A stretch of 64,000 bases of DNA. It comes from Chloroflexi bacterium OHK40. Its GTDB lineage: Bacteria > Chloroflexota > Chloroflexia > Chloroflexales > Chloroflexaceae. The position numbers were made by a program, and so were the translations under genes. Where the stretch lies: contig SFCB01000290.1 of NCBI GenBank assembly GCA_004367505.1, positions 1 through 64,000 on the forward strand, given 5' to 3'. The notes beneath the pieces are model-generated. The model was not told the DNA's origin and did not search any database. It was given only the letters and a program-made list of their open reading frames with translations. This document shows positions 8,422-20,109 of this stretch, one piece after another; positions within the stretch are counted from its first letter, which is position 1, and the number at the start of each line of letters is the position of its first letter.

Positions 8422-8555
8422 GTCCGGCATATCGATGAGACGGGCGTATTTGTGGATGTTGGCCTGCGGCAACTGACAGCCTTGCCCGCCGCGCCGGCGG
8501 TGGGCGTCCGATATCCCCCCAGCGCTCGCAGGAACAGGTGTAGGAGGTGGCAACA
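8422..8555 (+). pseudogene. Detached end of the final PRC-barrel unit of array protein 1
   Basis: Reading on in the frame of the upstream gene past the TAG at 8419-8421 gives VRHIDETGVFVDVGLRQLTA followed by LPAAP, which completes the PRC-barrel unit exactly as in the neighbouring copies. The frame then runs into the start of the next gene without another stop until after 8600. This shows the TAG is an interruption of a once longer gene or a base-call error, not a natural end. Confidence 0.7.
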
Positions 8556-10463
8556 ATGCTACTGCCAATCGGGGCGCAGGTGCGCTGCCTGGATGGCGCG
8601 GCCGGACGCCTGAGATTCATCGTCATCGACCCCGATGATAGCGAAGTGACCGATCTGATCGTCGAGCGCCGCGCTCTGCTACACCGCGACATCGTCGTGC
8701 CGATCGGCTGGGTCGAGCGTACCACCGAGGATGCGATCTTCCTCAACGCGTGCCTGGACGATCTCAACACGCTGCCGGAGTACAATGAGGTTGAGTTCGT
8801 CCAACCCGATCCGAGCTACCGCCCGCTGAGCGGGCACCGCGTCGAGGAGACCCGCATCTGGATCGGCTCCTACGAGACAGTCAGCGGCGGGCGGCCGTGG
8901 ATCCTTCGACAGGTACGTCTGGGCGTCGACGAGGGCGAGGTGTTGGTTCACCGGGGGTTACCGGTGCAGGCCAGCGATCATCGCTCTGTGGGCGTTGTCG
9001 ATCACCTGGTGATCGATCCAGCCAGCAAGCGTGTCACGCATCTGGTCGTCCGACACGGCTGGCTCTGGAGCCGGGAGGCGCACCTCGTGCCGCTGGAGCA
9101 GGTGGCGGAGTTGAACGAGTATGGGGTCCGGCTGAACCTGTCGGTGGATGCATTCGAACACCTGCCGCGCTATACGCCACCCACAAGCGATGGGCAGATC
9201 GCGGCAACTGTGCAGCGGGCACTGGAGACCGACCCGCGAACCCGCGAGGCCGGGCTGCACGTAGAGGTATGTGATGGCGTCGTCCGGCTAGCCGGCGCCC
9301 CGGTGGCGGAGAGCATCATGCAGGCGGCGCGTGCGATCGCCCGGCGCATCCGTGGCGTGATCGGCTTCGCCGATGAGTTGGAGGAGTTACCTGCCCCGCC
9401 GTTGCGGATCGGCACGCCAGTCTATGCGCGCAATGGGCGCTTCGGCACACTCGCTAGAGTCGTGGTCGACCCGCACGCGCGCCGCGTGACGCATCTGGTG
9501 GTGCACCAGGGCTGGCTGCTCACCGAGGATCGGGTGATCCCGATCGAGCGGGTGGCCCGCGCCGAGCCCGACGGCATCTACCTGGACGCCCCGTCGATCG
9601 ATCTGCAGGGCTACCCCCGCTATCGGGAGGAGGCCTTTATCGAGCCGCAGGCAGAGTGGGAGGAGATTGCGCCGTACCTCGTCGCCGACACGCTCTTCTG
9701 GGGCGGGCCGTACCCTGGCGTAGCGCCTCCAGTGCGGCCCGCCACAACGCATACGCTCTCCAGCGGCATGCCGGAGAGCGAGCTCATCCTGCGATGCGGC
9801 GATCCGATCTTCTCCAATGGGGCTCTGGTCGGTGTGCTGGATCACGTGCTGATCAACACGACGAATGGCATTATGACTCATCTGGTCGTGGAGGAGCATG
9901 GCACCAGGCGCAGAGTGATCGCTCCGGCCGAGTGGATCCGGGAGATCCAGCCCGGCTCAATCACGCTAGAGCGCTGGAACCCCTACCAGCCTGGCGTACC
10001 GGCGTTTTCGGCTGCCCGAGACGCCGCCGCGCTCGCCGCAGATCTCAATGCCTGCCTGCGGGCCAACCCGGCCTTCAGCGCGGTGCAGGTCAGCGTCGAC
10101 CGCAGCGTGGCGCAGCTTTCCGGCAACGTGGCGACGATTGCCGACAAGGCGGCGGCGGACGCAATCGCACGTGCGACGCCCGGCGTGATCGACACGGAGA
10201 ATGCCATCTCGGCGGACAGCGCGCTCTTTGGTCGCATCACCGCCGCCCTGGCCGATGACCAGCGCACCGCTCTCGTGCCGATTGAGGTGATCGTCGATCG
10301 GGGCATCGTCACGCTCAAGGGTGCGGTACCCACACCAGCGATCAGAGCGGCAGCGGAGACGATCGCCCGGTGCCAGCCGTGCGTCGTGGCGGTGATTAAC
10401 GAACTGGAGATTCGCCGCGAGGAGCCGAACCCGATGCTGGCCGCCGGGGCGCTCCTCCACTAA
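8556..10463 (+). CDS. PRC-barrel/BON domain array protein 2
   Basis: A 635-residue paralogue of the upstream gene. ATG at 8556 follows AGGAGG by 8 nt; the in-frame GTG at 8547 overlaps that SD and is less likely. Units in order: PRC (LLPIGAQVRCLDGAAGRL), PRC (VLVHRGLPVQASDHRSV), BON (about residues 210-285), PRC (RIGTPVYARNGRFGTL), PRC (LILRCGDPIFSNGALV), then two BON units to the end (VQVSVDRSVAQLSGNVAT; IEVIVDRGIVTLKGAVPT). No signal peptide or membrane segment is seen. PRC barrels bind protein or RNA partners and BON domains are associated with membrane or osmotic stress in other proteins; the array's role is unknown. Confidence 0.88.
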   Translation: MLLPIGAQVRCLDGAAGRLRFIVIDPDDSEVTDLIVERRALLHRDIVVPIGWVERTTEDAIFLNACLDDLNTLPEYNEVEFVQPDPSYRPLSGHRVEETRIWIGSYETVSGGRPWILRQVRLGVDEGEVLVHRGLPVQASDHRSVGVVDHLVIDPASKRVTHLVVRHGWLWSREAHLVPLEQVAELNEYGVRLNLSVDAFEHLPRYTPPTSDGQIAATVQRALETDPRTREAGLHVEVCDGVVRLAGAPVAESIMQAARAIARRIRGVIGFADELEELPAPPLRIGTPVYARNGRFGTLARVVVDPHARRVTHLVVHQGWLLTEDRVIPIERVARAEPDGIYLDAPSIDLQGYPRYREEAFIEPQAEWEEIAPYLVADTLFWGGPYPGVAPPVRPATTHTLSSGMPESELILRCGDPIFSNGALVGVLDHVLINTTNGIMTHLVVEEHGTRRRVIAPAEWIREIQPGSITLERWNPYQPGVPAFSAARDAAALAADLNACLRANPAFSAVQVSVDRSVAQLSGNVATIADKAAADAIARATPGVIDTENAISADSALFGRITAALADDQRTALVPIEVIVDRGIVTLKGAVPTPAIRAAAETIARCQPCVVAVINELEIRREEPNPMLAAGALLH

Positions 10464-10529: not shown

Positions 10530-11213
10530 ATGGAAACGCAACCTGAGCGATCCGGGCCGTAGCAGCTCGGAGCTCTGCACGCTGGCGAGCGCGCGCGCTT
10601 CATCACCGAACTGGAACACCAACTCGATGGGCTATACCGTTTCATCGCGCGCGAGCTGCGCTATCAGGAGGCACTTGGCAACCTGATTCCGGGTGAGATA
10701 GCGCCCGAAGAGATTGTGGATGAGGTAGCGCTGCGTGCGATTCGCCGCCTGCCGCGCCTTCCGCAGCGGGCCACGTTGCGTGGCTGGCTGCGCTTGCTGG
10801 CGCTGCGCGCGATCGAGGATCACATTCGCCGGCTGCAAGCGACGCGCAAGAGCGTGGCGCTATCGCTCGAAATGCCACTCCGAAGTGGCCAGCGGGCCGA
10901 CGTCTACTATCAGCCTGATCTGGCACTGAGCTGGGCCGACGTGCTGCCCGCCACCACGCCAACCCCGGAGGACGCGCTGCTGCTCCAGGAGACGCAAGAC
11001 GAGTTGGAGCGCGCGCTGAATTCGCTGCCGCCCGAGCAGCGCCTGGCCTTTGTGCTGCGCGCGATCGAAGGGCTGGGCTATGCGGAGATCGCGGCGGTGA
11101 CGCACCAGCCGCGTGAAGCTGTGAAGCAAGCCTACCACGCGGCGCGTGAGGCGCTCCGCCAGACGTTCGCCGATCGTTTCCTGGCGACGGACGGCGCTCT
11201 GCCCGCTAGATGA
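10530..11213 (+). CDS. Alternative sigma-70-family (ECF-like) factor with in-frame TAG at codon 11
   Basis: ATG at 10530 has AGGAGG 7 nt upstream and begins METQPERSGP, followed by TAG at 10560-10562. The same frame then runs uninterrupted for about 216 codons: ERARFITELEHQLDGLYRF and a region 2-like segment, then region 4 (LNSLPPEQRLAFVLRAIEGL, GYAEIAAVTHQPREAVKQAY). Between the TAG and position 10710 there is no ATG, GTG or TTG in frame, so a product starting at GTG 10716 (165 residues) would lose most of region 2. Expression needs readthrough, a CTG start, or the TAG is an error or lesion. The anti-sigma-like/baeRF gene follows 21 bp downstream, the usual sigma/anti-sigma order. Confidence 0.7.
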
Positions 11214-11234: not shown

Positions 11235-12620
11235 ATGGATGAGCGTGTGTTCTTGCGCTATCTCGACGGAGAGTTGGACCCGGACGCTGCGGCGGCAGTC
11301 GCAGCGGCGCTGCGGGATGATCCAGGGCGGCGCCGGCGCTTCGCCGAACTGCGCGCCATCGAGCACGCCTATCAGTCCGGACAGGAAACCCTACCCGAGG
11401 CACGGCGGGCCGCCCTGATGGAACGGCTACGCCGAGAGCCGCCCACTTCCCACTTTGATTTGGTTCGCAGGGCCGATCTGGAAGCCCTGGCCGAGGTGCA
11501 TAGCACGCACGGGCCAATTTTCAGCCTCTACCTCGATACGCGCCCGGAGCGCCGCGAGGCTGAGCCGCCACTGACGCGCCTCGCTCACCTGCTGCGCCAG
11601 ACCGAGCAGCAGGTGAGGCTGGATGAGCGCGCGCGGAGCTACCGCACGCACTGGGCCGAGGAGTCTGAGCACCTCCGCGCCTGGCTCGCCGAGCACACGC
11701 CACTGGAGGGGCACGGACTGGCCATCATCAGCTGCACCGCGATCGGCCTCTGGCGCGCCTTCCGCCTGCCGGTGCCGGTGCGCGATCAGCTGGTGGCCGG
11801 CGATCAGCCATACCTGCGCCCGCTTGCCACGCTGCTGGATGAGTTCGAGCGGTACCTGGTCGTGTTGATCGATGCCGGAAACGCGCGCCTGTTCGAGGTG
11901 TGCCTGGGCACGATCGAGGAGCTCGATGACGTGTGGGGCTACGTGCCGCCGGCCACCGGCCACTTCGTCGAGAAGACCGGCCACCGGCACGACGCCTATC
12001 TCCACCGGCACGCCAAACGGGTGGCCGAGCGCGCCGAAGCGCTCTGGCATGCGAATCACTGTCACTGGCTCGTGATCGGCGGCACCGAAGAGGCCCTGGG
12101 CGAGCTGCGGGAGCACCTTTCGAAGCCGCTCCGTGAGCGCCTGGCGGGCGAATTGCACCTCTCGCCGCAGGTTGAGCCGGGCCAGGTGCTTGAGCGCGTC
12201 CTGGAGATCGAACGCGATCAGGAGCAGCGCGTTGAGGCACAGCGCGTCGAGGAGGTTGTTACCGCCGCACACAAAGGTGGTGCGGCCGTGCTCGGGCTTG
12301 AGCCAACCCTCCTTGCGATCGTTGAGCAGCGCGTGCGGCTCCTGATCGTTGCCGAAGACGACCCTCGGCCCGGGTGGGTGTGCCAGAGCTGCGGCTTCCT
12401 TGGCGCGAACCGAACGGAGATCTGCCCGATCTGTGGCCTGACGCTCACCGAGGAGCCCGATAGTATCGATGTGGCCCTGGCGCGCGTGCTCGCACAGAAC
12501 GGTGAGATCGAAGTCGTGCGGAGCCGCGACGCGCGTCAGCTCCTGATGCTCCACGGGGGCATCGGCGCCATGCTCCGCTACAGCTATGGAGCGCCTCCAC
12601 CCCCTGAGAGCACACACTGA
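11235..12620 (+). CDS. Anti-sigma-like N-terminus fused to baeRF (eRF1/Pelota-like) release-factor domain
   Basis: A 461-residue protein starting at ATG 11235 with GAGGTG upstream. Residues 1-75 look like the N-terminal helical domain of anti-sigma factors (RYLDGELDPDAAAAVAAAL), but the zinc-binding His/Cys ligands are absent. From about residue 82 (ADLEALAEVHSTHGPIFSLY) the sequence follows the bacterial archaeo-eukaryotic release factor (baeRF family 10-type) pattern, including YLVVLIDAGNARLFEV, the HRHDAYLHRHAKRVAE segment and HWLVIGGTEEALGELREHL. A zinc ribbon closes it (CQSCGF and CPICG, about residues 385-410). baeRF proteins are predicted to act on stalled or terminating ribosomes. Next to a sigma-factor gene, the fusion could couple translation state to transcription (inference). 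Confidence 0.8.
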   Translation: MDERVFLRYLDGELDPDAAAAVAAALRDDPGRRRRFAELRAIEHAYQSGQETLPEARRAALMERLRREPPTSHFDLVRRADLEALAEVHSTHGPIFSLYLDTRPERREAEPPLTRLAHLLRQTEQQVRLDERARSYRTHWAEESEHLRAWLAEHTPLEGHGLAIISCTAIGLWRAFRLPVPVRDQLVAGDQPYLRPLATLLDEFERYLVVLIDAGNARLFEVCLGTIEELDDVWGYVPPATGHFVEKTGHRHDAYLHRHAKRVAERAEALWHANHCHWLVIGGTEEALGELREHLSKPLRERLAGELHLSPQVEPGQVLERVLEIERDQEQRVEAQRVEEVVTAAHKGGAAVLGLEPTLLAIVEQRVRLLIVAEDDPRPGWVCQSCGFLGANRTEICPICGLTLTEEPDSIDVALARVLAQNGEIEVVRSRDARQLLMLHGGIGAMLRYSYGAPPPPESTH

Positions 12621-12676
12621 CAAAGCGCTAATGCTCCGTTGACACCGATCTAGCACACGTGCGGCAAGATGCAACT

Positions 12677-12811
12677 GGCGAGCAGCGCCTGCAGAACCCG
12701 CTGGCCCTGAAGCTGCTTCAGGGTGAGTTCCGCGAGGGCGATACCGTGCTTGTGGATGTCGAGGATTCTGGACAGTTCACATTCCAGAAACGTCAGGCGG
12801 TGGCTGCATAA
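12677..12811 (+). pseudogene. Relic of clpB 3' end
   Basis: In the frame ending with TAA at 12809-12811, codons read GEQRLQNPLALKLLQGEFRE followed by GDTVLVDVED. This is the conserved small D2 domain at the C-terminus of ClpB/Hsp104 (family pattern I-Q-x-x-I-x-N-P-L-A-x-x-L-L-x-G-E-F-x-x-G-D-T). No AAA+ module precedes it: the baeRF gene ends at 12620 and only about 55 bp separate them. A clpB gene has been deleted to its last 45 codons. It sits 16 bp before dnaJ, which suggests an ancestral clpB-dnaJ order. Confidence 0.85.
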
Positions 12812-12827: not shown

Positions 12828-13763
12828 ATGGAATTCAAAGACTACTATACGGTGCTGGGCGTGGCCCCTGACGCCGACGATCAGACGATCAAAAAGGCCT
12901 ACCGCACGCTCGCGCGTCAGTACCATCCCGATGTGAACCCGGGCGACAAGCAGGCCGAGGAGCGCTTCAAGGAGATCAACGAGGCCTATCAGGCGCTGAG
13001 CGACCCCGAGCGCCGTCGCAAGTACAATGAACTGCGCGAGCAATACCAGCGCTGGCAGCAGCGTGGCGGCGCCGGCGAGTTCAACTGGGGCCAGTGGCAG
13101 GCGACGCCTGGCCAGCAGGTGTATACCTACAACGTGACGCCCGAGGACCTCGAGGATCTCTTCGGCGATGCCAGCCCGTTCTCCGATTTCTTCGGTTCGA
13201 TCTTTGGCCAGACCCGCCGGGAGCAGGTGGCACGCCCCCGGCGCGGCCGCGACGCGGAACTACCCGTCGAGATCTCGCTGGAGGAGGCGTTCCACGGCAC
13301 CACGCGCTCGATCCAGATCGGCGAGCGCCGGATCGATGCAAAGATCCCGCCAGGCGCCCGCACCGGCACGCGGGTGCGGCTCGCAGGCCAGGGGAGCCCC
13401 GGTAGCGCCGGTGGGCCCGCCGGCGACCTCTACCTGGTTGTGCGGGTTGCGCCGCACCCGCTCTTTGAACGCGACGGCGACGATCTGACGACGGTAGTGC
13501 CTGTTGATTGTTATACGGCGGCGACAGGCGGTGAGGTGCCCGTGCCGACACTCGACGGTACGGTGCGCTTGAAGATCCCGCCGCGCACCCAGGCCGACCG
13601 CATCTTTCGCCTGAAGGGCAAGGGCATGCCGCACCTTGAACGGCCCTCCGAGCACGGCAATCTGTTCGCGCGGGTCAAGCTCGTGTTGCCCGAGCCCCTG
13701 AGCGACGCCGAGATCGCGGCGCTTCGGAAGCTGGCCAGTGAGCGCCCTGGCCGACAAGCATAA
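12828..13763 (+). CDS. cbpA: DnaJ-type co-chaperone, CbpA class (no zinc fingers)
   Basis: A 311-residue Hsp40. The J domain (residues 3-70) carries the HPD motif in YHPDVNPGD and begins DYYTVLGVAPDADDQTIKKA. A Gly/Phe-poor linker with DLFGDASPFSDFFGSIFG follows, then the two C-terminal client-binding beta domains (LPVEISLEEAFHGTTRSIQI onward). The four CxxCxGxG repeats of true DnaJ are absent, which places it in the CbpA class. ATG 12828 is chosen because the J domain begins there; the frame upstream is clpB-relic DNA in another phase. The cbpM-like gene two positions downstream supports the assignment. Confidence 0.93.
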   Translation: MEFKDYYTVLGVAPDADDQTIKKAYRTLARQYHPDVNPGDKQAEERFKEINEAYQALSDPERRRKYNELREQYQRWQQRGGAGEFNWGQWQATPGQQVYTYNVTPEDLEDLFGDASPFSDFFGSIFGQTRREQVARPRRGRDAELPVEISLEEAFHGTTRSIQIGERRIDAKIPPGARTGTRVRLAGQGSPGSAGGPAGDLYLVVRVAPHPLFERDGDDLTTVVPVDCYTAATGGEVPVPTLDGTVRLKIPPRTQADRIFRLKGKGMPHLERPSEHGNLFARVKLVLPEPLSDAEIAALRKLASERPGRQA

Positions 13764-13772
13764 GGACAGCCT

Positions 13773-15014
13773 ATGGAGTCACGCAATCCGTCCCGCCGGT
13801 GGCTCATCCCTGCGCTCATCGCCGCCCTGCTCAGCTTCGCCCTGCTGCTGGGTGGTATTGGCGGCGCCACGCTGATGTGGATGGGCCTGCGGGCTGAACG
13901 CTCGCCGGGCCAGCTATCGGCCGGCGCGGCACCGTTACCGACCGCGACGGCCACGGTCAGCCAGCCAACCGCGAGCGCGCCGGCAACCACGCCCGTACCC
14001 ACCAGCGAGCTCGAGGCCCAGATCGCGGCCGTTTATCAGCAGGCCGGGCCCGGGGTGGTGAATATCACTAACCGCTCGATGACCTATGACTTCTTTCTGA
14101 ACCCGATCCCCCGCGAGGGCACCGGTTCGGGCTTCTTCTATGACGCGCAGGGGCACATCGTAACGAACTACCACGTTGTGGCCGACGCCGAGGAGTTGCA
14201 GGTGACGCTGGCCGATGGGCGTAGCCTGCCTGCGCAGATCGTCGGGACGGATCCCTCCAATGATCTGGCCGTTATTCGCGTCGATCTGCCACCGGAGGCG
14301 ATCCACGTTGTGCCCCTCGGCGACTCGACCCGGCTGCGCGTTGGCCAGTTCGTTGTCGCGATCGGTAATCCCTTCGGCCTGGAGCGCACGCTTACGGTTG
14401 GAGTGGTCAGCGCGCTGGGGCGCGTGATCGAAAGCCCGGACCAGCGCTTTATCGGCGAGGCTATCCAGACCGATGCGCCGATCAATCCCGGTAACTCCGG
14501 CGGCCCGCTGCTCGACCTGTCCGGGGCGGTGATCGGTGTCAACTCCGCCATCCTCAGCCCGAGTGGCGCGAACGCCGGGATCGGCTTCGCGATCTCGGCC
14601 CGGACGGTGCAGCGCATCGTGCCGGAGCTGATCGCAAACGGGCGCTATCCACACCCCTCGCTCGGCGTCAGCATTCTCGAACTGACGCCGCAGCGCCTCC
14701 CGATCCTGCAGCGGGCCGGGATGGCCGTGCCGGTCGAGCAGGGCTTGCTGGTGGTGAACGTTGCGCCCGATGGGCCAGCTGCGCGCGCGGGTGTGCGCGG
14801 CGCGACACGATCGGTGCGCGTCGGCAATCTCGATGTTCCCGTCGGCGGGGATATCATCACGGCGATCAATGGCCAGCCGATCGCAACCCGTCAAGATCTG
14901 ATCGTCTATCTTGAGACCAGAACTCGCGTCGGCGAAACGGTGCAGGTGACGATCGTCCGCGATGGCCAGGAACAGGTTGTACCGGTAACGCTCGGCGAAC
15001 TGGCTGCTGGATGA
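13773..15014 (+). CDS. HtrA/DegP-type serine protease (S1C), membrane-anchored
   Basis: Envelope quality-control protease of 413 residues. An N-terminal transmembrane helix (about residues 13-35, ALIAALLSFALLLGGIGGAT) anchors it facing outward, followed by a Thr/Pro-rich linker. The trypsin-like domain has the catalytic His in TNYHVVAD, Asp in SNDLAVIRV and Ser in NPGNSGGPLLDL. One PDZ domain follows (about residues 300-410; GGDIITAINGQPIATRQDLI). It lies 9 bp after dnaJ, so the two are almost certainly cotranscribed. Confidence 0.95.
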   Translation: MESRNPSRRWLIPALIAALLSFALLLGGIGGATLMWMGLRAERSPGQLSAGAAPLPTATATVSQPTASAPATTPVPTSELEAQIAAVYQQAGPGVVNITNRSMTYDFFLNPIPREGTGSGFFYDAQGHIVTNYHVVADAEELQVTLADGRSLPAQIVGTDPSNDLAVIRVDLPPEAIHVVPLGDSTRLRVGQFVVAIGNPFGLERTLTVGVVSALGRVIESPDQRFIGEAIQTDAPINPGNSGGPLLDLSGAVIGVNSAILSPSGANAGIGFAISARTVQRIVPELIANGRYPHPSLGVSILELTPQRLPILQRAGMAVPVEQGLLVVNVAPDGPAARAGVRGATRSVRVGNLDVPVGGDIITAINGQPIATRQDLIVYLETRTRVGETVQVTIVRDGQEQVVPVTLGELAAG

Positions 15015-15026
15015 AGGAGAGCGCCC

Positions 15027-15347
15027 ATGATTGTCCGGCGGATACCCCTCGATGATCTCGCCGCGCGCGCCGGTCTGCCGGTGGAGACGGTGCGGCAACT
15101 CGCCGAGCTTGGATTGATCGGCGCCTGGCCAGAGGTGACCGACGCGGATCTGGTCGAGTTGCGCCGGGTGCGCCGGCTGATCGAAGATCTCGGCCTGGAG
15201 CACGAGGCGGTCGCCGTTGTGCTGCGGATGCGACGGCGGCTGATCGAGTTGCAGCAGGAGGTGGCACGGCTGCGCGTAGCACTCGCTGGTGGCCAACGCG
15301 CTGACCGTGTGACGGCCTGGGTTGAGGCGGAGTGGATCGAGCCCTAA
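15027..15347 (+). CDS. CbpM-like chaperone modulator (MerR-type helix-turn-helix)
   Basis: A 106-residue protein with an N-terminal MerR-like winged helix (DLAARAGLPVETVRQLAELG, then ELRRVRRLIEDLGL) and a C-terminal coiled-coil (LQQEVARLRVAL). This is the architecture of CbpM, which binds the J domain of CbpA and modulates it. Its position 12 bp after htrA, with cbpA-type dnaJ just upstream, supports that role over DNA binding. SD GGAGAG lies before ATG 15027. Confidence 0.8.
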   Translation: MIVRRIPLDDLAARAGLPVETVRQLAELGLIGAWPEVTDADLVELRRVRRLIEDLGLEHEAVAVVLRMRRRLIELQQEVARLRVALAGGQRADRVTAWVEAEWIEP

Positions 15348-15452
15348 CGCCTACCTCGCGCGCTGACCGTTCTGGCCGCACCTCGGCACGTCTCCAATCG
15401 AACGTTGCGTGGCCACCAGCATCGATCTTGACTCAGACAGGGGGCAACACCG

Positions 15453-15710
15453 ATGCACACCCGTTACGTCGATCTGCGGCCGCTCGACTACCTGACGGCC
15501 GAATTGTCCGCGCTCTGGTGGTATTATCTCTCTCAGGGCCTGGCGCTGATCCTTCTCGGCATCGCGGTGATCATCTGGCCCAACCTCCTGGCAGTGCTGG
15601 CGGCGGCGTTTTTCATCGCGATCGGGGTGGTCCTCATCACCCTCGGCTGGCGTATTCGCCGCGTCAAGCGCAGCTACGAGACGTTCAAGCGCACGTTAAT
15701 CGAGAGCTAA
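15453..15710 (+). CDS. Small membrane protein, HdeD/DUF308-like half-unit
   Basis: 85 residues with two transmembrane helices (about residues 25-44 and 47-66; SQGLALILLGIAVIIWPNLL and AFFIAIGVVLITLGW) and a basic cytoplasmic tail (RIRRVKRSYETFKRT). The pattern of a helix ending in I-x-W-P followed by a glycine-rich second helix resembles one repeat of the HdeD/DUF308 family, membrane proteins associated with acid and heat stress loci. The family call is tentative. It lies between cbpM and hsp20 in the same direction. Confidence 0.6.
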   Translation: MHTRYVDLRPLDYLTAELSALWWYYLSQGLALILLGIAVIIWPNLLAVLAAAFFIAIGVVLITLGWRIRRVKRSYETFKRTLIES

Positions 15711-15730
15711 ACCACCGGGGATGGTGATCT

Positions 15731-16140
15731 ATGGATAAGCTCCCGCCCGCGTCGATCCGGATCTTGCACACCCGTCTGCCCTACGCGCAGTTCGCAGTGC
15801 GCCCATGGTCGCCATCGCTCAACGTCTTCGAGACCGACCAGGGCATGCTGCTGGTGATCGAACTGGCCGGCGTCGATCCGGCAGAGCTGCGGATCGACGC
15901 GCACCCACAGGTGGTGCGCATCGAGGGCGCGCGGCAGATCGCGGTTCCAGAGCAACTCCGCCGCCTGCATCGCATGGAGATCGCCTCGGGCGCCTTCCAG
16001 ATCGAGGTGCCCTTCGAACGGCCGATCGACCCGGAGCAGACGAGCGCGCGGGCCCACAACGGGCTGCTGGAGGTCTGGCTGCCGTTCGCCGGCCAGAGCG
16101 CGCGCAACGTGGTGATCACCGTCCAGAAGGAGGGCCGCCC

Positions 16141-16144
<4 letters not shown>
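15731..16144 (+). CDS. Second Hsp20-family small heat shock protein
   Basis: A 137-residue holdase. The alpha-crystallin domain spans about residues 28-130 (PSLNVFETDQGMLLVIELAG; LRIDAHPQVVRIEGAR; FQIEVPFERPID), and the A-x-x-x-x-G-L-L motif is ARAHNGLLEVWLPF. It lacks the basic KR-rich C-terminus and a clear I-x-I/V anchor, ending VVITVQKEGRP. Its stop overlaps the lon start (ATGA at 16141-16144), which couples holdase and protease synthesis. It is clearly divergent from the Hsp20 at 1183-1617 and not a recent duplicate. Confidence 0.92.
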
Positions 16145-18516
<2,372 letters not shown>

Positions 18517-18558
18517 GCACCGTCGCGCAACGCCGATTGCCAGGGAGAATCACGCGCG

Positions 18559-19254
18559 ATGCTGCCGCTCTACGATACCGTCCAGGCACGCTCATTTCCG
18601 TTCGTCAACTGGGCCCTGATCGCGGCAAATGTGGCCTGCTTCCTATTCGAACTGGCGCTCGGCCCGCAGGTTGAGGCGCTGCTCGCCGCACTCGGCGTGG
18701 TGCCGGCCCGCCTGCTCGCCAGCCCCGATCCCGCGCAGCTCCTGACGCTCTTCAGCTCGATGTTCCTGCACGGGGGATGGGCCCATCTGTTCAGCAATAT
18801 GCTGGCGCTCTACATCTTCGGCGATAACGTCGAAGATCGTATGGGGCACGGCGGCTACCTGGCCTTTTACCTGCTGTGCGGCCTGGCGGCCGGGCTGACA
18901 CACGTGTGGTTCAACCCCACCTCCGCGCTCCCAACCGTCGGCGCCAGCGGCGCGATCAGCGGGGTTCTGGGCGCCTACCTCGTCCTCTTCCCCACCGCGC
19001 AGGTGATCACGCTCGTGCCGATCTTCTTCTTGCCCTGGTTCGTCGAGATCCCGGCGCTGGTCTATCTCGGCGTCTGGTTCCTGTCGCAGCTGTTCAGCGG
19101 CACCCTCGCGATCGCCACCGGCGCGCAGGAGTTCGGTGGCGTGGCCTGGTGGGCCCACGCTGGCGGGTTCATCGCCGGGGTACTGCTCGTCGGGCTCTTC
19201 GTGCGGCGGCGCCCCGTTCGCCGGGTGTACGTCGATGAGTACTGGCCCTGGTAG
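18559..19254 (+). CDS. Rhomboid-family intramembrane serine protease
   Basis: A 231-residue polytopic membrane protein with about seven hydrophobic segments. The catalytic Ser lies in VGASGAISGVLG, the catalytic His in the later helix WWAHAGGFIAG, and the helix 2 motif is LHGGWAHLFSNMLAL. The bacterial rhomboid pattern with a loop insertion (LVPIFFLPWFVEIPAL) is present. ATG 18559 has GGGAG upstream. It continues the operon-like row after lon; cleavage of single-pass membrane proteins would add membrane quality control. Confidence 0.95.
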   Translation: MLPLYDTVQARSFPFVNWALIAANVACFLFELALGPQVEALLAALGVVPARLLASPDPAQLLTLFSSMFLHGGWAHLFSNMLALYIFGDNVEDRMGHGGYLAFYLLCGLAAGLTHVWFNPTSALPTVGASGAISGVLGAYLVLFPTAQVITLVPIFFLPWFVEIPALVYLGVWFLSQLFSGTLAIATGAQEFGGVAWWAHAGGFIAGVLLVGLFVRRRPVRRVYVDEYWPW

Positions 19255-19269
19255 GCCGGGAGGAGACTG

Positions 19270-20109
19270 GTGGACTTCTTCTCGCTGCTCTGGATCTTCT
19301 TTATCATCTCATCGCTGCAACCGGTGATCCGCCAGAAGATGCTAGAAGCCGGGCGGTTGCAGCTGATGGAGCGCCTGGAGCGCCAGCGCAAGAGCCGGGT
19401 GATCACGCTGATCCATCGCCAGGAGACGCTGAGCCTGCTCGGCTTTCCGCTCGTCCGGTATATCGATATCGACGACTCGGAAGCCGTACTCCGCGCCGTC
19501 AAGATGACCGACGACGATGTGCCGATCGATCTCATCCTGCACACTCCGGGCGGCCTGGTGCTGGCGGCCGAGCAGATCGCCAATGCCCTGCGCAGGCACC
19601 CGGCCCGGGTGACGGTCTTCGTGCCCCACTACGCGATGTCCGGCGGCACCCTGATCGCGCTGGCCGCAGATGCGATCGTCCTGGACGAGAACGCCGTCCT
19701 GGGGCCCGTGGACCCACAGCTCGGCCAGCAGCCCGCTGCGTCCATCCTCAAGGTGCTCGAACGGAAGCCCATGAGCGAGATCGACGATGAGACGATCATC
19801 ATGGCCGATATCGCGGAGAAGGCGATCCGGCAGGTCAAGGCGACCGTGAGCGAGCTCCTGGCCGACCGGATGGGCGCCGAACGCGCCGAGCAGATCGCCA
19901 ACACCCTTGCGACTGGCACCTGGACGCACGATTACCCGATCAGTGTGCGTGAGGCGCAGGAACTGGGCTTGCCCGTGAGCACGGAGATGCCGAAAGAGAT
20001 CTACAAGCTCATGGGCCTCTATCCGCAGACCGCCCAGCGGCGCCCGTCGGTCGAATATATTCCGCTGCCGCGATCGCGCGAGGTTGAGCGGCAACGCCCG
20101 GCCCGCTGA
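19270..20109 (+). CDS. SDH_sah family serine protease (ClpP/crotonase fold)
   Basis: A 279-residue protein with an N-terminal membrane helix (SLLWIFFIISSLQPVI) followed by a ClpP-like fold. The oxyanion segment is LILHTPGGLVLAAEQIANAL, the putative nucleophile Ser lies in HYAMSGGTLIALAADAI, and DENAVLGPVDPQLG follows as in SppA/NfeD-related and serine dehydrogenase proteinase families. GTG 19270 is preceded by GGGAGGAG. It is 15 bp downstream of the rhomboid gene and closes the proteostasis island. The substrate is unknown. Confidence 0.9.
   Translation: MDFFSLLWIFFIISSLQPVIRQKMLEAGRLQLMERLERQRKSRVITLIHRQETLSLLGFPLVRYIDIDDSEAVLRAVKMTDDDVPIDLILHTPGGLVLAAEQIANALRRHPARVTVFVPHYAMSGGTLIALAADAIVLDENAVLGPVDPQLGQQPAASILKVLERKPMSEIDDETIIMADIAEKAIRQVKATVSELLADRMGAERAEQIANTLATGTWTHDYPISVREAQELGLPVSTEMPKEIYKLMGLYPQTAQRRPSVEYIPLPRSREVERQRPAR

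Follow-up and report, generated by a model that had tools for sequence, protein, structure and literature searches.

What could a protein do that joins an N-terminus resembling an anti-sigma domain (ASD) to a relative of release factors, and whose gene lies directly behind a sigma factor gene? This question is raised by a 461-aa open reading frame (ORF) of Chloroflexi bacterium OHK40 (contig SFCB01000290.1), which we confirmed at positions 11235-12620 of the forward strand in the window, that is, the whole stretch of 64,000 nucleotides that was analysed. We delineated the following parts:

11235-12620, forward strand: fusion protein of 461 aa, predicted ASD joined to a Balon-type baeRF of family 10
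11235-11450, forward strand: predicted zinc-less class I ASD, residues ~1-72, with four helices in a low-confidence model
11451-11807, forward strand: N-terminal part of the baeRF (decoding-site side), residues ~73-191; its alignment to MSMEG_1130 begins at residue 75
11808-12215, forward strand: baeRF family 10 core, with Glu246 at the place of the GGWSQ glutamine of relatives
12234-12584, forward strand: C-terminal eRF1_3 (Pelota-like) domain with an inserted zinc ribbon (C383, C386, C397, C400)

By searching Pfam, we found that residues 192-327 match baeRF_family10 (PF18854) with an E-value of 7.9e-27 and 94.7 bits for a cut-off of 27.1, which bears out the family 10 identity proposed in the initial annotation. 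Residues 334-450 matched eRF1 domain 3 weakly, and other baeRF families gave weaker matches to the protein. It also shares with family 10 the three-domain aeRF1-like layout described by Burroughs and Aravind 2019 (PMC6514570). The zinc ribbon (CxxC...CxxC) had been taken for a terminal one; its four cysteines are instead internal, within the eRF1_3/Pelota-like domain. In NCBIfam, the protein matched two families of ribosome hibernation factors, MSMEG_1130 (E = 1.7e-19) and Rv2629, as well as archaeal RF1, staying under the equivalog cut-off in every case (70.1 bits versus 480 for the hibernation factor model), so that it should be regarded as a relative of Balon and not as an equivalog member. 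Among solved structures, the single chain matched was the ribosome-bound Balon MSMEG_1130 (8v9j_z, residues 75-448 of the fusion, E = 4.7e-8), and a profile built from 29 relatives matched the same Balon at E = 9.5e-36, followed by aeRF1/eRF1 and Pelota. Since the alignment with MSMEG_1130 starts at residue 75, the baeRF part begins at about this position and the N-terminus is an addition. A full-length AlphaFold model computed with three sequences (pLDDT 43.6) was too weak to be used. The OHK40 genome also holds a second, divergent baeRF-like gene (L002, G000:C292:15082-15381), which scored 22.4 bits, under the Pfam cut-off.

A genome from another family within the same order (G041) encodes an orthologue of the fusion that is 55% identical over its length, and both proteins form one clade with a support of 100/100. 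In both of them a glutamate (Glu246 in OHK40) occupies the column of the catalytic glutamine and the GGWSQ loop is gone, a loop that is present in many of the relatives examined. This distinguishes the fusion from family 10 at large, in which the catalytic glutamine is usually kept and peptidyl-tRNA hydrolysis is possible (PMC6514570). Balon, too, is devoid of GGQ, and it does not act as a release factor (PMC10901736). The glutamate and the relation to Balon favour occupation of the A site without peptide release, and the fusion protein is likely involved in ribosome hibernation rather than in release. The action at terminating ribosomes that had first been proposed for it therefore finds no backing, given the exchange of the catalytic glutamine for glutamate and the fact that the solved protein closest to it, Balon/MSMEG_1130, is a hibernation factor. 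Like Balon (Msmeg1130, Rv2629 and P. urativorans Balon; PMC10901736), with which it is homologous over its whole baeRF part, the fusion lacks a GGQ-type catalytic glutamine and is surrounded by stress genes; unlike Balon, it carries an N-terminal ASD and a zinc ribbon in the C-terminal domain, and it scores below the equivalog cut-offs of NCBIfam.

The N-terminus (RYLDGELDP...) has no cysteine in its first 76 residues and therefore lacks the Hx3Cx2C zinc motif. Given that ~44% of class I ASDs are without this motif (PMC7406223), its absence is no bar to membership. In Pfam, zf-HC2 alone matched the N-terminus, at sub-threshold E-values of 0.01 for OHK40 and 0.0043 for the best of the two orthologues. 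As this single-sequence support was weak, we made three further tests. When the N-terminal 74 residues were searched against 158 genomes of the class, 16 non-fusion matches were obtained at E-values up to 0.01, and in half of these (8/16) the ORF immediately followed an ECF sigma gene on the same strand (binomial p = 3e-10 or 3e-7 for an assumed background of 2% or 5%, respectively). Next to this, a profile of the two fusion N-termini was run against 2518 ORFs from 48 loci that had been fetched independently by sigma searches. The first seven places were all taken by anti-sigma ORFs located behind sigma genes (E = 5e-4 to 0.5); the best match among shuffled ORFs had an E-value of 0.18, so that only the top six are clear of the control. 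The proteins retrieved in this way are ordinary anti-sigma factors, whose genes adjoin sigma genes unrelated to the one studied here. Finally, hhalign aligned the fusion N-termini with five Chloroflexota ASDs with a probability of 97%.

With the joint ASD profile, the two best solved chains were the anti-sigma-W factor RsiW (5wuq_C) and 3hug_B, annotated merely as a membrane protein and which we take to be RslA, the partner of SigL. The fusion N-termini alone gave no significant match against solved anti-sigma factors. The chain of the G041 orthologue unites matches to two NCBIfam anti-sigma models with a match to the MSMEG_1130 hibernation model. A single-sequence AlphaFold model of the OHK40 N-terminus, of low confidence (pLDDT 63.8), placed helices at residues 4-10, 16-27, 30-47 and 55-67, in the order found in ASDs, which consist of a three-helix bundle and a fourth helix linked to it, and a fold search with this low-confidence model returned no solved relative. 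The core motif of ASDs is kept in the OHK40 protein. Judged by these sequence comparisons, the first ~70 residues of the fusion are a zinc-less class I ASD, and the anti-sigma identity initially proposed for them is upheld by the retrieval of sigma-adjacent ASDs, by hhalign and by the NCBIfam matches of the orthologue. The fusion resembles class I anti-sigma factors such as RskA, RseA and RsiW (PMC7406223) in its ASD motif, in the position of its gene directly after a sigma gene and, going by the low-confidence model, possibly in its four-helix order, zinc-less forms being common among these factors. Unlike in RskA, RseA and RsiW, what follows the ASD is a ribosome-binding-type baeRF and no membrane or redox module.

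Far from being an ordinary part of baeRF proteins, this N-terminus was present in 2 of the 75 homologues examined, namely the OHK40 fusion and its G041 orthologue. Homologues were detected in 58 of 158 genomes of the class (E up to 1e-10), two of them with the N-terminus, and in 59 genomes of a phylum sample of 400 (E up to 1e-20), in which the same two were again the only carriers. Running the ASD profile over all the loci collected revealed no fusion to other baeRFs. A search of plasmids gave one distant match and a scan of genome contigs two distant relatives only, all three without the N-terminus. We found no paper on an anti-sigma domain in a baeRF or Balon-type protein in the open-access literature, and the accessible text of the baeRF family 10 paper (PMC6514570) makes no mention of an ASD fusion. 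As far as sequences can tell, the domain fusion is real and rare, and it is a variant that combines anti-sigma and hibernation factors rather than a new kind of system.

The genes upstream of the fusion gene are the following:

8547-10463, forward strand: PRC-barrel/BON protein (Pfam), directly upstream of the sigma gene
10530-11213, forward strand: ECF-type sigma gene interrupted by a TAG; the open part, 10563-11213, contains regions 2 and 4

The sigma ORF (10563-11210, stop to stop) matched the sigma70-ECF model TIGR02937 with 66.9 bits in the frame from 10563 (cut-off 42.9), as well as the Pfam models for sigma regions 2 and 4, region 2 with 22.7 bits for a cut-off of 24. Its stop codon is separated from the ATG of the fusion by 21 nt, so that a sigma-70-family gene indeed stands directly before the fusion gene. 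The ATG at 10530 is preceded by AGGAGG and followed ten codons on by an in-frame TAG (10560-10562, codon 11). According to the ORF caller, the only standard in-frame start between this TAG and region 4 is a GTG at 10716, and a start there would lose the beginning of region 2. The frame after the TAG is open for 216 codons and 52% identical to the sigma factor of G041. As its conservation, along with a coding-like codon-position composition, reaches upstream of GTG 10716, the true sigma protein, if made, would start earlier than standard gene callers say. The G041 orthologue (L006 822-1505) begins at the matching ATG and has no stop. A sequence error, a recent loss and a non-standard start are all possible explanations of the TAG in OHK40. 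The gene order in G041 is Hsp20, Hsp20, PRC/BON, sigma, fusion, with an 11-nt overlap between the last two. The order PRC/BON, sigma, fusion is thus common to both genomes, and the pairing of sigma and fusion genes noticed at the outset is conserved as a unit in another family.

Together, these data suggest that the locus encodes a two-part regulator, in which a Balon-type hibernation protein carries an N-terminal class I ASD that partners with the product of the preceding sigma gene; we give this reading a probability of about 0.6. It is quite probable that this sigma factor is held by the ASD. In known ECF/ASD pairs, the ASD binds the sigma factor at two places, region 4 through helix 1 and region 2 through helix 4 (PMC7406223), and the ASD of the fusion would bind and inhibit the upstream sigma factor in the same manner. 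On ribosomes that are idle or stalled, the baeRF part would occupy the A site but would not release the peptide, and its binding to the ribosome may change the hold of the ASD on the sigma factor. In a possible, still tentative form of this model, the fusion would be an anti-sigma factor drawn off by vacant ribosomes, which would switch on a dedicated sigma factor. As long as the fusion protein is free, it would keep sigma bound; when idle ribosomes pile up, they would take the fusion protein and sigma would be released. The freed sigma would then produce more hibernation factor and stress proteins until the ribosomes are saturated, upon which free fusion protein would turn sigma off again. 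We prefer this sign because it closes a loop that fits the amount of the factor to the ribosomes; the opposite sign, in which the ribosome-bound fusion keeps sigma away from RNA polymerase, may also apply. The genes of the same transcription unit, including that of the fusion itself, are natural first candidates for the regulon.

A comparable logic operates for sigma-32, which is controlled through chaperone titration by DnaK/DnaJ. There as in our model, a product holds its own sigma factor until a client removes that product. The systems would differ in that the client would be idle ribosomes and the holder a fused ASD.

It had been suggested that the pair governs the chaperone/protease island downstream. 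This island (12828-20109) encodes DnaJ, HtrA, MerR, a small membrane protein, Hsp20 and Lon, ordered as in Chloroflexus, and is followed in OHK40 by genes for a rhomboid and an SDH-type serine protease. Between the fusion gene and dnaJ lies a mark of a breakpoint:

12662-12811, forward strand: relic of the 3' end of clpB

Its translation is 66% identical over 38 aa to the C-terminus of the ClpB of the same genome (E = 1.6e-11). In the two Chloroflexus genomes compared, presumably those of C. aurantiacus and C. aggregans, the order is DUF2905, baeRF, DnaJ, HtrA, MerR, small membrane protein, Hsp20 and Lon; this island contains neither a sigma nor an ASD gene, and its baeRF is distant from the fusion. 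The OHK40 island is thus of the Chloroflexus type from DnaJ on, whereas the position of the native baeRF is occupied by the sigma/fusion cassette. The existence of the island without the cassette in Chloroflexus and the ClpB relic indicate that cassette and island have separate histories. For these reasons, and because the pair lies elsewhere in G041, we dropped the idea that the sigma factor controls the downstream island.

A neighbourhood survey for sigma factors, as proposed in the initial annotation, revealed five further Chloroflexota loci in which a sigma gene of the same subfamily directly precedes a baeRF gene, the baeRFs being without an ASD. The names Hsp20, DnaK, GrpE and BON in loci without a Pfam scan were read from the sequence. 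The pair is followed by Hsp20s and BON in G223, accompanied by Hsp20 in G328, by Hsp20 and a GrpE-like gene nearby in G169, and arranged as DnaK-sigma-baeRF in G236. In G370, where the sigma ORF corresponds to the second half only, an HPF-like gene comes after the pair. The baeRFs of G169 and G236 have other N-terminal extensions. The sigma subfamily also occurs in the order Hsp20-sigma-Hsp20-Lon in G084, which we take to be Thermobaculum terrenum, and, in family f10 (L115 5735-6933, L118 4856-6021), immediately downstream of a weak HPF-like gene, close to Hsp20 and with no baeRF. Over the loci collected, the ASD profile found no ASD beside other sigmas of the subfamily. Since alternative sigma70 factors are, with Hsp20, DnaJ and DnaK, among the published neighbours of Balon (PMC10901736), a sigma-baeRF pairing is not new in itself. 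We did not retain the grouping of sigma-linked baeRFs and the fusion into one clade, as the tree does not resolve the deep branches.

Two side observations were made at these loci. A shared C-terminal extension of ~45 aa (EEYEE..G..P....) is found on the sigmas L168 636-1427, L171 8915-9673, L170 7537-7920 and L112 9318-10064, all from loci without an ASD, and is absent from the sigmas of the fusion pairs. In G370, a gene on the reverse strand (L170 5444-6121) encodes an HPF/S30AE-like protein whose C-terminal half matches models of sigma region 2 (NCBIfam, E = 3e-4); this protein is possibly another kind of fusion between a hibernation factor and a sigma domain, beside a sigma-baeRF pair.

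Several other explanations have to be weighed against a two-part regulator. The pair could be decaying or inactive in OHK40, with sigma as a pseudogene, the fusion as a hibernation factor only and its ASD as a leftover. The TAG lies ten codons past the sole ATG that has a good ribosome-binding site, region 2 is preceded by no further standard start, and the clpB relic testifies to a rearrangement of the locus. However, the 216 remaining codons are open and conserved with G041, coding-like composition and conservation are also seen before GTG 10716, the core motif of the ASD is kept, and a single base in a draft assembly could be an error, so that we consider decay rather unlikely. One could also question whether the upstream protein still works with RNA polymerase: it might be a sigma relative off such duty that works with hibernation factors, the ASD joining both. 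Its divergent region 2, below the Pfam cut-off, and the HPF-like protein of G370 with its sigma region 2-like stretch would fit this idea, which is nevertheless very unlikely given that region 4 is normal and that the protein as a whole scores above the cut-off of the ECF superfamily model.

Doubts about the fusion protein itself concern both of its parts. Short helical domains are easily matched by chance, and sigma-linked baeRFs with other N-terminal extensions do exist (G169 and G236); the N-terminus could therefore be a helical extension that helps the baeRF to bind ribosomes and merely resembles an ASD. Yet unbiased searches specifically retrieved sigma-adjacent ASDs, the G041 orthologue matches anti-sigma models and other baeRFs do not have this N-terminus, which makes a chance resemblance highly improbable. 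As for the baeRF part, a rescue factor that releases the peptide from stalled ribosomes, with the ASD coupling stalling to transcription, would agree with the catalytic glutamine usually found in family 10, whose members may hydrolyse peptidyl-tRNA (PMC6514570), and with GGWSQ in many relatives. Both fusions, though, have glutamate for glutamine and have lost the GGWSQ loop, and Balon, itself without GGQ, is not a release factor (PMC10901736). There is accordingly little chance that the protein acts in this way.

If the two-part regulator that we favour is correct, the fusion next to its sigma gene would be a direct wire from the state of the ribosomes to transcription. To our knowledge, how the amount of hibernation factor is matched to idle ribosomes is a largely open matter, the known control being indirect. 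Under the tentative titration model, the pair would let bacteria sense idle ribosomes directly, without a second messenger, and adjust hibernation and stress genes in response; the sigma-baeRF pairs without an ASD would then be the same circuit built from two separate proteins. The fusion thus also lends a possible meaning to the wider sigma-baeRF pairs of Chloroflexota.
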